Of a stretch of 5,681 nt of DNA, positions 283 through 5,669 are shown in pieces. The notes beneath the pieces are model-generated. The model searched no databases and had not been told where the DNA came from. It saw nothing but the letters and a program-made list of their open reading frames with translations. The stretch spans positions 11,302-16,982 of the forward strand of contig DNVQ01000032.1 in the NCBI GenBank assembly GCA_003507475.1. Direction: 5' to 3'. Both the position numbers and the translations under genes were made by a program. Position 1 is the stretch's first letter; each line of letters begins with the position of its first letter. The stretch is from Candidatus Moraniibacteriota bacterium. Its GTDB lineage: Bacteria > Patescibacteriota > Minisyncoccia > Moranbacterales > UBA9337.

Positions 283-310
283 GTTTTTTATCTTATTATT
301 TATTATCTAT

Positions 311-336
311 TAACGAGTTAACGGATTAACGAGTTA
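311..336. repeat. Octamer repeat copy A (left arm around the four-helix-bundle gene)
   Basis: TTAACG recurs at 310, 318 and 326, an exact 8-base period (unit TTAACGAG, middle unit TTAACGGA). It ends in GAGTTA followed by a T-run, as left-hand copies do here. It provides the stop codon of the four-helix-bundle gene and lies 28 bases upstream of the pgk start. Confidence 0.9.
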
Positions 337-723
337 TTTTTTAAGAAATTCTTTATTTAATTTTTTCTTTTGCAAATAAACAATAAATCCTCCAATTTGA
401 TTAGCCACATCTTCTAATTTATTGTTTATATTATTGAATTCTTCTTGATTAATATAATTAATAGCTAAAGCAATATACAATTGATTTCTAACTTCGCCAG
501 ATGAACCTTTAGCTATTTTAAGAAATCTAACGAATTCATTATTGTTATTCTTTTCAAATCCTTCTACTATATTGGAACTTATTGAAACAACTGCTCTTCT
601 AATTTGATCTCTGAGACCATAATCTTTGGAAAAATTTCCTCTAGCGGTTAAATCATAAATGTTTTTCGTAATTGTTAAACTTAATTTCCAAATATTTAAT
701 TCTTCGAATTTTTGTATTTTCAT
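334..723 (-). CDS. Four-helix-bundle protein, S23 / intervening-sequence (IVS) family
   Basis: This 129-residue protein has the hallmarks of the S23/IVS four-helix-bundle family: FEELNIW near the N-terminus (6-12, usual form FEDLxVW), FSKDYGLRDQIRRA then SISSNIVEGF (usual SIPSNIAEG) in the middle, and the GSSGEVRNQL helix near residues 73-82. Its length is normal for the family. Relatives are encoded inside 23S rRNA intervening sequences and free-standing in many genomes; solved members form pentamers, and the related Avd protein of diversity-generating retroelements binds nucleic acid. The role of free-standing copies is not established. There is no Shine-Dalgarno site: the start follows the repeat's conserved AATTAT flank, and MKIQKFEEL matches the family N-terminus, so the start is secure. 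It lies between mraY and pgk, has no metabolic link to them, and is precisely enclosed by inverted repeats, suggesting it arrived as a cassette. Confidence 0.92.
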   Translation of the reverse strand: MKIQKFEELNIWKLSLTITKNIYDLTARGNFSKDYGLRDQIRRAVVSISSNIVEGFEKNNNNEFVRFLKIAKGSSGEVRNQLYIALAINYINQEEFNNINNKLEDVANQIGGFIVYLQKKKLNKEFLKK

Positions 724-751
724 AATTCGTTAACTCGTTAATGCGTTAACT
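724..751. repeat. Octamer repeat copy B (right arm, inverted relative to copy A)
   Basis: On the minus strand this reads GTTAACGCATTAACGAG followed by TTAACGAATT. It shares the GAATTAT end with the other right-hand copies at 2021-2048 and 3248-3275. The final AATTAT of the right-hand consensus supplies the AT of the four-helix-bundle start codon. It is inverted relative to 311-336. Confidence 0.9.
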
Positions 752-777
752 AAATAATAAATAATTTTATCTGAGAT

Positions 778-1891: not shown

Positions 1892-2047
1892 AGTTAACGA
1901 GTTAACGCATTAACGAGTTGGTTTTTGATAAATTTTTATTTGATTTTTGAATTTTTAATTTTGACTCAAATAAAATTAAACCTAAATTAAAAATTCTAAA
2001 TTCTTAAATAAATTATTATAATTCGTTAACTCGTTAATGCGTTAACT
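1892..2047. repeat. Gene-less inverted-repeat element between mraY and ftsW (copies C and D)
   Basis: Bases 1900-1919 (AGTTAACGCATTAACGAGTT) are a perfect 20-base reverse complement of 2028-2047. Copy C spans about 1892-1919 and copy D about 2021-2048; both have the 8-base TTAACGAG period. They enclose 108 very AT-rich bases with no plausible gene. Copy C ends in GAGTT plus a T-run like copy A, and copy D ends in GAATTAT like copy B, so the pair has the same polarity as the one around the four-helix-bundle gene. It fills most of the 196-base mraY-ftsW gap. Confidence 0.88.
1949..1996. repeat. Inner inverted repeat nested in the C-D element
   Basis: Bases 1949-1961 (GAATTTTTAATTT) are the perfect 13-base reverse complement of 1984-1996, with a 22-base loop. 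Together with the outer 20-base arms this makes a nested double stem in DNA or RNA. The stem is purely A/T except for one G-C pair, so chance in AT-rich sequence contributes. Confidence 0.6.
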
Positions 2048-3186: not shown

Positions 3187-3203
3187 AATTTTTTATTAAA
3201 GAA

Positions 3204-3275
3204 TTAACGCATTAACGAGTTAACGAGTTAAAAAATAAAAAATAATAATTCGTTAACTCGTGAACTCGTTAACTA
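3204..3275. repeat. Inverted-repeat hairpin between ftsW and trmD (copies E and F)
   Basis: Bases 3212-3231 are the reverse complement of 3253-3272 with one mismatch in 20, leaving a 21-base AT-only loop apart from one C and G near the right arm. Both arms carry the 8-base TTAACGAG period. The right copy (3248-3275) ends in GAATTAT like copies B and D; the left copy (3204-3230) ends in GAGTTA. As RNA it would form a long hairpin 16 bases after the trmD stop. It lacks a following U-run on the minus strand, so it is not a standard terminator. Confidence 0.85.
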
Positions 3276-3290
3276 AATAATAATAAATTA

Positions 3291-4121
3291 TTATTTTGAA
3301 TTATCTCTTCTCCATTTCTCTATCGCTTTATGATTTCCACTCAACAAAACTTCTGGAACTTTCCAGCCATTAAATTCTTCCGGCTTAGTGTAATGGGGAT
3401 ATTCCTTATTAGCTTGTAGCTTGTAGTTTGTTAGCTTATTAGCATCATTTGTTTTTGAATTATTTTCATTTTCATCCATCTGTGAACCGTGAACTATGAA
3501 CTGTGAACTATTCCCCTCTTCTTTTGTCTGTGAACTGTCAACCATGAACTCTGAACCGATACTATAGCTTTCTTCTGCCAATGATTCTTTGTTTCCCAGA
3601 ACTTCCGGCAAAAGCCGACTGACTGAATCCACTACAATCATGGCGGGAATCTCTCCTCCAGTTAAAACATATTCTCCGATAGAAAATTCTTCATCTATTA
3701 TATTATCCGCCACTCTTTCATCCACTCCCTCATAACGACCGCAAATCATTATCAAATTTTCATATTTGGACAATCTCTGTGCATCCGCTTGGGTAAACTT
3801 TTTTCCCTTCGCCGAAAACAAAATTATTCGAGTGTTTTTTAAATTTGGGATTTGGGATTTGATATTTGTTTGGAATTTGAGATTTGAGATTTGAGATTTC
3901 AAAAATTGAACACATCGCCAGATGGGTTCAATTTTAAGTACCATCCCCGCTCCTCCTCCATAGGGAGTATCGTCTACAGTCTGATGTTTGTCAGTAGCGT
4001 AATCTCTTAAATTATGAATTTTTATTTCAATTAAATTTTTCTTTTGCGCTCGCCCCAAAATAGACTCATTAAAATATGAATCAAAAATTTTAGGAAAAAT
4101 TGTAATTATATCAAATTTCAT
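3291..4121 (-). CDS. trmD: tRNA (guanine-N1)-methyltransferase TrmD with in-frame repeat insertions
   Basis: TrmD methylates N1 of G37 in tRNAs using S-adenosylmethionine, preventing +1 frameshifts. The knotted SPOUT domain is clear: [10 protein letters not shown] (1-10), [13 protein letters not shown] (48-60), [12 protein letters not shown] (126-137), [15 protein letters not shown] then PAM (143-161), [12 protein letters not shown] (165-176). The C-terminal part has YPHYTKPE (241-248) and [10 protein letters not shown] (255-264). Glu240 occupies the position of the catalytic Asp/Glu before the PHYTRP motif. Two regions exceed the family pattern: residues about 75-95 (a [12 protein letters not shown] peptide) and about 188-239 ([10 protein letters not shown] and [12 protein letters not shown] peptides). 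Both are translations of 7-base periodic DNA repeats. The protein also ends at WRRDNSK, lacking the roughly 30-50 residue C-terminal extension of E. coli-type enzymes. The frame is intact, so it is probably functional. No Shine-Dalgarno site is visible; the start is set by the canonical [10 protein letters not shown]. Confidence 0.95.
3409..3443. repeat. AGCTTGT-type periodic repeat inside trmD
   Basis: About four degenerate units related to AGCTTGT/AGTTTGT, mostly at a 7-base period, encode the [11 protein letters not shown] stretch of TrmD (residues about 229-239). Pieces recur in the trmD leader: TAGCTTGTAG is identical at 3410-3419 and 4149-4158, and TAGTTTGTTAG at 3424-3434 matches 4126-4136 at 10 of 11 positions. 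Confidence 0.7.
3482..3557. repeat. Two four-unit GTGAACT heptamer arrays inside trmD
   Basis: Bases 3482-3509 are exactly four 7-base units (GTGAACC, GTGAACT, ATGAACT, GTGAACT). Bases 3530-3557 are another four (GTGAACT, GTCAACC, ATGAACT, CTGAACC). They are in direct orientation and separated by 20 unrelated bases. In the TrmD frame they encode the [10 protein letters not shown] and SEFMVDSSQ peptides of the interdomain linker. Confidence 0.88.
3842..3899. repeat. ATTTGAG/ATTTGGG heptamer array inside trmD
   Basis: Three ATTTGGG/ATTTGAT units, an irregular spacer (ATTTGTTTGGA), then three ATTTGAG units and ATTTC. In the TrmD frame they encode residues about 75-95, giving LKSQISNLK and later KSQIPNLK. 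The insertion lies in the loop before the [10 protein letters not shown] strand. Confidence 0.85.
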
Positions 4122-5312: not shown

Positions 5313-5543
5313 TTAATTTTCTATATAGGCGACAATATCGCCAACGGTATTCATTTCTCTTGCAATCTCTTGCGAAATTTCTATGCCAAATTGATTTTCA
5401 ATAGCCTCCACAACAAGAATAAAGTCCAATGAACTGGCTCCCAAATCATCCACCAAGGAGCTTTCGGAAAAAATTCTTTCTCCATCTATTTCAAGAATTC
5501 TCGAAACAATAGAAACCACTACCCAAAAGATTGATGCGTTCAT
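5313..5543 (-). CDS. Acyl carrier protein (acpP-like), with Ser-Ser-Leu at the prosthetic-group site
   Basis: This 76-residue acidic protein has the acyl carrier protein fold: helix I (about 3-17), then FSESSLVDDLGASSLDFILVVEAIENQFGIEI broken here at LGASSL (34-39), and a C-terminal TVGDIVAYIEN. Such proteins carry acyl chains on 4'-phosphopantetheine attached to a serine, here Ser38. The usual motif is Asp-Ser-Leu; this one has Ser-Ser-Leu (Asp replaced by Ser37), seen in some specialised carrier proteins. The start at 5543 is chosen because GGAGGAG ends two bases upstream, a normal AcpP length results, and a longer in-frame extension toward 5651 would run through the neighbouring terminator. 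No fatty-acid genes flank it; it is a single-gene unit, so the partner pathway is unknown. It could serve lipid, secondary-metabolite or lipid A-like acylation. Confidence 0.92.
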   Translation of the reverse strand: MNASIFWVVVSIVSRILEIDGERIFSESSLVDDLGASSLDFILVVEAIENQFGIEISQEIAREMNTVGDIVAYIEN

Positions 5544-5545
5544 AT

Positions 5546-5552
5546 CTCCTCC
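5546..5552 (-). promoter_or_regulatory. Shine-Dalgarno site fixing the acyl carrier protein start
   Basis: GGAGGAG on the minus strand; the GGAGG core (5548-5552) lies four bases before ATG 5543. It rules out the longer in-frame reading upstream. Confidence 0.82.
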
Positions 5553-5602
5553 GTTATTATCTATCGTTAATTTAAAAAATACAAAGTTTAACCACTCTGC
5601 TA

Positions 5603-5630
5603 AATATAACAAAAAAATAAAAAAAGTAAA
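5603..5630 (-). promoter_or_regulatory. Possible promoter for the acyl carrier protein gene
   Basis: TTTACT (5625-5630) and TATATT (5603-5608) are separated by 16 bases on the minus strand. Both are near consensus (4 and 5 of 6), and they sit between the upstream terminator and the gene. The very T-rich context makes chance matches likely. Confidence 0.42.
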
Positions 5631-5641
5631 TATCCAAAAAC

Positions 5642-5669
5642 AAAAAACCACCCCCTAAGGAGTGGTTTT
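5642..5669 (-). terminator. Intrinsic terminator of a gene beyond the right edge
   Basis: On the minus strand AAAACCACTCC pairs with the GG-rich partner ending GGTGGTTTT (stem 5644-5654 with 5659-5669, one G-U pair, 4-base loop), followed by TTTTTT. It must end a minus-strand gene located to the right of the window. Confidence 0.85.

Follow-up and report, generated by a model that had tools for sequence, protein, structure and literature searches.

An S23 four-helix-bundle gene enclosed by inverted short-period repeats as a likely minimal mobile element

The S23 unit and its copies in the host genome

The window, meaning the whole 5,681-nucleotide stretch analyzed here (positions 11,302 to 16,982 of contig DNVQ01000032.1, assembly GCA_003507475.1), belongs to a 1.2-Mb draft genome of a Candidatus Moraniibacteriota bacterium in 62 contigs (G000). 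It contains an S23 gene enclosed by inverted TTAACGNN octamers, with three units in each arm (310-335 and 724-749; Table 1). The encoded protein scores 121.6 bits against PF05635 (cut-off 33.8) and 113.6 bits against TIGR02436 (cut-off 24). Nothing else in the unit rose above the Pfam cut-offs besides this 23S_rRNA_IVP match, and no transposase or recombinase is encoded. The neighbors, read by eye, are pgk-like and mraY-like protein genes, and no Rfam family matched within the window, in agreement with an earlier note on this DNA that had placed the unit between protein-coding genes. The names pgk, mraY, ftsW, trmD, and pilC used for neighboring genes are those that we recognized by eye from the sequence. 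Elsewhere in the window, a trmD-like open reading frame (ORF; 3291-4121) holds in-frame runs of other short-period repeats in two loops (about 3406-3560 and 3844-3896), and its orthologues in relatives vary at the same two loops, some of them with repeat-like inserts. A further ORF (5313-5651) resembles, by eye, an acyl carrier protein.

Table 1. Features of the S23 unit and of its gene-less copies in the window
Feature	Position	Strand	Basis
S23 / 23S_rRNA_IVP four-helix-bundle gene, 129 aa, ATG start	334..723	-	PF05635, TIGR02436 and structure model
3' arm, units TTAACGAG TTAACGGA TTAACGAG, AT-rich outer end; inner edge holds the stop codon (334-336)	302..335	-	
5' arm, units TTAACGCA TTAACGAG TTAACGAA, AT-rich outer end TTATTTATTATTTAG; abuts the start codon (721-723)	724..765	-	
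Gene-less copy, arms 1894-1919 and 2020-2045 with 100 nt and no gene between them; flanked by mraY-like and ftsW-like genes	1894..2045	-	
Gene-less hairpin copy, arms 3196-3229 and 3247-3272, loop of 17 nt	3196..3272	-	

Gene and arms are fitted closely together. The stop codon (TTA) lies inside the left arm, as the earlier note had read it, and the start codon (CAT) directly adjoins the AATT of the right arm. The same note had described two 21-base arms complementary at 20 of 21 positions; the inverted arms are there, and the count in that register is 19 of 20 (309-328 with 723-742), or 30 of 35 in a register that includes the AT-rich outer ends (302-336 with 731-765). The inverted-flank score of this locus is 49, against at most 24 across 100 shuffles. 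Three arm pairs lie in the window, one gene-bearing and two gene-less. When folded as RNA, the region of the short gene-less hairpin (3190-3290) is predicted at -28.1 kcal/mol (z -7.0 versus shuffles), and the whole gene-bearing unit is predicted to close on its own arms (z -4.6).

A structural model of the S23 protein (pLDDT 92.8) has 2gsc as its best match in the PDB (TM 0.83 by query, E 1.8e-6) and also matches the solved S23 protein 2rld. The match to 2gsc by profile A1 (E 1.6e-35) likewise identifies a four-helix bundle like that of XCC0516.

The host genome contains nine PF05635 loci. At one of them (L006), an S23 protein 90% identical to that of the window stands within the same arms and the same outer ends, among different neighboring genes. 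Gene and arms thus form one bounded unit, as the earlier note had proposed, and this unit is present in two copies with the same arms and outer ends. The motif TTAACGNNTTAACGNNTTAACG has 150 matches in this genome with up to three mismatches, against eight for the reversed pattern, and the octamer motif has 78 against one with up to two mismatches. Among 30 motif loci and the window there are 11 arm pairs and 16 single arms (one single arm untyped), so that gene-less arms far outnumber gene-bearing units. Every one of the 11 pairs joins one 5'-type with one 3'-type arm, as expected if the gene-less hairpins derive from gene-bearing units. Most of 40 distinct arms collected from the host genome and two relatives have, by eye, an AT-rich outer end close to TTATTTATTATTTAG.

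Arms at S23 genes across relatives and phyla

To place the unit among its relatives, PF05635 was searched in 54 genomes at the level of the order and found at 150 places in 39 of them (E ≤1e-5). All but 12 of the 14 weakest places were taken in, and at 132 of the resulting 138 loci our own profile recovered 133 ORFs, of which 126 were scored, the flanks being too short at the other seven. With a threshold of 28 for the inverted-flank score, chosen after the first 34 loci had been seen, inverted short-period arms flank 87 of the 126 genes (median 35), compared with 72 of 1260 mispaired flanks (median 17) and eight of 104 other genes from the same genomes (median 18), three of these eight sitting in the window's own mraY locus. 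Values of the area under the curve for the flank score were 0.85 and 0.92. A wider scan of named genomes ranked the loci by their likeness to one S23 protein and covered the best 80 of 584; among these, 76 ORFs were scorable, and 52 reached the threshold, versus 17 of 760 mispaired flanks and one of 30 other genes. Among these best 80 of 584 loci, the hosts above threshold include Bacteroidota, Clostridia, Acidobacteriota, Kiritimatiellota, Fibrobacter, Omnitrophota, Sedimentisphaerales, proteobacteria, and candidate phyla. The earlier note had proposed, as a check, to see whether other four-helix-bundle genes are flanked by inverted periodic repeats; in both sets most of the scored genes are, and its reading is not refuted on this count.

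When only DNA beyond the ORF is scored, 68 of 126 genes in relatives and 43 of 76 among the best 80 of 584 named loci reach the threshold, against 3.8% and 1.4% of mispaired controls, eight and nine in direct orientation, and none after shuffling. Below the arm threshold fall 39 of the 126 genes in relatives and 24 of the 76 in the named set (best 80 of 584 loci). Arms go with ORF length, occurring at 87 of 115 genes of 100-159 residues and at none of six of at least 180. The arm-less PF05635 proteins of 180-200 residues are found at L193, L195, L196, L197, L198, and L199; two of the six belong to G035, which has no RT match. A simple rule assigned 72 of 139 arms a best period of 7 nt; it was 8 nt for 11 arms, 9 nt for seven, and 6 nt for one, and 48 arms were left untyped. 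Five Flavobacterium genomes carry an S23 gene at one common locus (L261, L269, L272, L276, and L305), with flanks that can be aligned at 73-87% identity.

Arm motifs differ between S23 subfamilies. By eye, proteins that start with SYKDLIVWQ mostly have TTAGCTT-like arms, KFEDIIAWQ proteins have AAAGTCC or AAAGTTT arms, YDLEERT proteins have AATTTCT or CAAATTT arms, and FTDLxAW proteins have GTATxTT, GAATTAT, or other arms. The window's own subfamily has TTAACGAG arms, which also occur in G052, a genome from another host family, around a protein of 71% identity, and one outer end of that unit matches the window unit's. A Mantel comparison of arm motif with protein, restricted to strictly non-coding flanks and to pairs between host families, gave a rho of 0.28 over 6654 pairs (0 of 299 permutations). 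This result shows gene and arms to travel together; it is by itself no proof of binding, and a correlation with subfamily would also be expected from joint inheritance of gene and arms without recognition.

Three of the motifs were counted in all 54 genomes, and their counts are higher where the cognate subfamily occurs (p 0.0019 with only two cognate genomes, 0.0035 with eight, and 0.0004 with seven). In all, the 15 genomes without PF05635 have three matches to one motif, two to another, and fewer than the reversed control to the third. Strict co-occurrence of motif and cognate gene was not found. G040 has 34 TTAACG and 24 TTAGCTT matches and no cognate genes, G052 has 23 TTAGCTT matches without the cognate gene, and two of the eight genomes with a TTAGCTT-type gene have no TTAGCTT match at all; the coupling of repeats to gene is hence a loose one. 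With the third motif, the excess is just one and zero in two of the seven cognate genomes.

Periodic repeats were also sampled irrespective of motif, in 20 stretches of at most 20 kb per side (388 kb from genomes with PF05635 and 393 kb from genomes without). Genomes with the family gave 155 periodic runs, 20 of them with an inverted partner, and genomes without it gave 87 runs, two with such a partner, both A-rich (p 0.004). This value comes from the second and laxer of two repeat finders; the first and stricter one gave nine pairs, three of them periodic, against none (p 0.08). Runs with a direct partner numbered nine and one, respectively. Equal abundance of the repeats in genomes lacking the gene, which the earlier note had named as evidence against its reading, was thus not what we found, yet some relatives do have repeats without a cognate gene.

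Filled and empty sites, orientation and partner enzymes

In the comparison of the mraY-pgk gap with its orthologue, also suggested by the earlier note, the unit is absent from G001, whose mraY has 84% DNA identity, and the gap is too diverged to yield a clean junction. G001 also has (L099, 2951-3862) a single TTAACGAG arm between pgk and, by eye, an aminoglycoside-phosphotransferase-type gene, with the gene start adjoining the arm; no partner for this arm was found in 4.4 kb.

Relatives of the unit on plasmids give a closer view. One S23 protein is matched by 31 plasmid records. A unit present on Trichormus variabilis plasmid C and on two further records is lacking from six records of 97.4-97.7% identity; four of these six were inspected (Tolypothrix, Aulosira, N. 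linckia, and N. carneum). Plasmid C differs from the empty plasmids by a single block of 428 bp, bordered on both sides by the duplicated 5-bp sequence GTAAT. A Nostoc record (C052) has a decayed copy at this site, and part of the pattern of presence and absence may accordingly stem from loss or from recombination between plasmids. Nostoc ATCC 53789 carries two related plasmids with S23 units in neighboring gaps, each gap being empty in the other plasmid, and further filled and empty pairs were found at nrdB-nrdA, cas6-cas4 (two), cmr2-cmr3, a TraM gap, and an Aulosira gap. Altogether, nine comparisons comprise one that is clean with a duplication (GTAAT), one that is nearly clean (possible TTCTA), and seven with extra or changed DNA. 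Read by eye, the unit starts at, or immediately downstream of, the preceding gene's stop codon in at least five of the nine, the junction itself restores a stop codon in three, and the arms on these cyanobacterial plasmids are heptamers. The filled and empty sites, together with the second copy within the same arms in the host genome, support the mobility that the earlier note had suggested. A search for phages as carriers returned no match to one S23 protein.

Three of the plasmid units (L326, L336, and L345) stand in CRISPR-Cas operons, at cas6-cas4 and cmr2-cmr3, and are missing in related plasmids. IVP genes are among those listed as associated with cas operons in the accessible part of one survey (PMC3936711). 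The S23 genes in cas operons look like passenger insertions, which may explain such reports. In Pseudanabaena ABRG5-3 the cas6-cas4 gap (L332) has no S23 gene and a different periodic repeat of ATTACGA type, as if gaps exchanged repeat families.

Orientation was scored where both neighbors are long open frames in the same direction. Gene-bearing units lie on the strand of their neighbors in 85 of 86 cases among relatives and in 54 of 57 among the best 80 of 584 named loci. Gene-less hairpins in the host genome run with their neighbors in eight cases and against them in seven (15 informative cases, two gene-bearing pairs left out; pairs 6:2 and singles 4:5 before that omission). Because gene-less hairpins face either way, the sense bias most likely reflects a need for read-through and not the insertion step, and insertion at the RNA level finds no support in these 15 cases as the source of the sense orientation.

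As candidate partner enzymes, RT and Y1 matches occur in 25 and 27 of the 39 genomes with PF05635 and in three each of the 15 without it. Five draft genomes with PF05635 (G003, G017, G040, G043, and G052) have neither, and an obligatory partner of either kind in the same genome is therefore unsupported; since both are commoner alongside PF05635, a partner enzyme may still take part. Six of 16 hand-picked PF05635 places lie within 2.5 kb of an RT, one of them a 192-residue frame, and part of the family is accordingly DGR-like.

Interpretation and relation to known systems

We consider it likely that the unit at about 302-765 is a minimal mobile element, in which an S23 four-helix-bundle gene, free of any transposase, is carried within inverted short-period arms that its protein likely recognizes. 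The best reading is that such units generalize the S23-carrying intervening sequences of rRNA genes. Recognition of the arms by the protein, and the chemistry of movement, are parts of this reading that we infer. By analogy with its solved relative, the S23 protein is probably a pentamer, and it would bind the folded arms as RNA or as single-stranded DNA. Host enzymes would then make copies of the unit, or insert it, beside the stop codons of genes within operons. The weakest step is that the element would act at the DNA level with host enzymes once the protein has bound the folded arms. Gene-less hairpins may be deletion derivatives moved in trans. The S23 gene itself would be expressed by read-through, which would explain why gene-bearing units are in sense orientation.

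Other explanations share parts of this evidence. The periodic repeats could be the mobile part, moved in trans by an RT or a Y1/RAYT-like protein, with the S23 gene as cargo or regulator caught between two arms. The higher frequency of RT and Y1 in genomes with PF05635, the excess of gene-less arms over gene-bearing units in the host genome, and the arms of G040 that have no cognate gene all point that way. Against this, the five draft genomes named above have PF05635 and neither enzyme, the link to RT may be inflated by PF05635 matches that lie beside RTs, as in DGRs, and the arm motifs track S23 subfamilies in a manner unlike random cargo. On balance we regard movement by such a trans-acting enzyme as unlikely. 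The arms could instead be RNA hairpins that act within the operon on stability, termination, or S23 autoregulation and are inherited with the gene, the unit no longer being mobile. Such a role would suit the strong predicted RNA hairpins and the fact that gene-bearing units in operons are almost always in sense orientation, and the hairpins of cyanobacterial STRR repeats have been suggested, in the available text of one study, to act on transcripts (PMC2670836). It fits poorly with plasmids that are 97.7% identical yet have a site filled in one and empty in another, with two copies placed at unrelated loci in a single genome, and with gene-less hairpins in either orientation (eight with and seven against), and appears very improbable. 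An origin of the arms by chance or from the base composition of AT-rich intergenic DNA can hardly be entertained; many arms in relatives are indeed AT-rich and repetitive, but some named hosts have G- or C-rich arms, and the mispaired, direct-orientation, and shuffled controls refute it.

Returning to the mobile S23 unit, an even chance seems to us fair for a wider proposal, namely a bacteria-wide class of mobile elements without a transposase of their own. In it, a pentameric S23 protein would read its own arms of 7-9-nt units and recruit host machinery for insertion beside operon stop codons, and the rRNA intervening sequences, the heptamer and octamer repeats of cyanobacteria and candidate phyla, and the "CRISPR-associated" IVP genes would be members or remnants. 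If true, this would give a common origin to the S23 ORFs of rRNA intervening sequences, to unexplained heptamer repeats, and to cas-associated IVP genes. The question of what S23 does would become one of binding between paired subfamilies and motifs, and a further question would be how a unit that has no nuclease, integrase, or reverse transcriptase comes to be inserted.

Compared with known systems, the unit resembles DNA transposons and insertion sequences in its terminal inverted repeats and encodes no transposase or recombinase. As in MITEs, the gene-less copies keep both ends of a gene-bearing unit; we know of no transposase-encoding parent for them, the parent here carrying an S23 gene. 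With the Avd proteins of DGRs the window protein shares its fold; its model matches Avd, more weakly than the solved S23 proteins, both alone (4dwl) and in the ribonucleoprotein (8ub7, 8ube). Unlike them, it scores below the cut-offs of the bAvd and Avd models (14.4 versus 40 and 16.7 versus 80), and the single RT match of the host genome is on contig C37, whereas the window is on C60.

Short tandem heptamers of the STRR, GGGAATC, and TAACTGA types are mostly intergenic, form hairpins in some cases, and are left unexplained in the available portions of the papers that describe them (PMC2670836, PMC4692102, PMC4679880). As described there, they resemble the S23 arms in their short tandem units, intergenic position, and hairpin formation. 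Neither S23 nor helix bundle appears as a term in the accessible text of two of these papers (PMC4692102, PMC4679880), and the former describes the heptamer repeats of Xanthomonas and Nostoc as having, in general, no link to insertion sequences or to transposable elements. Among the literature matches listed, with subscription papers mostly outside reach, none beyond the papers cited here describes S23 genes with inverted periodic repeats outside rRNA, and the accessible text of two others only names the S23 family (PMC10910872, PMC10053308).

The closest comparisons are with rRNA intervening sequences and with REPIN/RAYT systems. The intervening sequence of Coxiella burnetii, as given in the available text of PMC4990558, is 428 nt long and closed by a terminal stem of 28 bp; its loop holds an S23 ORF, tandem GACAGAT heptamers stand just upstream of the start codon, and the element has long been suspected to be mobile. 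Insertions in CPR rRNA genes also encode the S23 family (PMC11270868, in part). The window unit has the same protein family and likewise carries its ORF in the loop between terminal inverted repeats. The Coxiella element lies inside 23S rRNA, whereas units of the window type lie between protein genes of operons, are multi-copy, have gene-less relatives, and fall into many motif families. Excision from the transcript by RNase III is a further mark of rRNA intervening sequences. The analogy to REP sequences and RAYT proteins, drawn in the earlier note with the reservation that a transposase fold is lacking, holds as a likeness, and REPIN/RAYT is the system nearest to the S23 units in its working. 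REPINs are short repeats that stand as inverted pairs, scattered between genes, with each family close to a protein gene of its own (PMC3116915, accessible part). The arm pairs of the host genome are likewise inverted and scattered between genes. RAYT is, in the same source, a Y1-type transposase, whereas the S23 protein has no nuclease fold, the S23 arms are built of 7-9-nt repeats in tandem, and the S23 gene itself lies within the unit. No Y1 gene lies in the unit, its gene being PF05635, and repeats of the motif type occur in G040 and G052, both without Y1 matches. Because it is not located in an rRNA gene, the unit is not an rRNA intervening sequence, and because it has no transposase it is not a REPIN/RAYT system; we class it as an S23-carrying intervening element in a form of its own.
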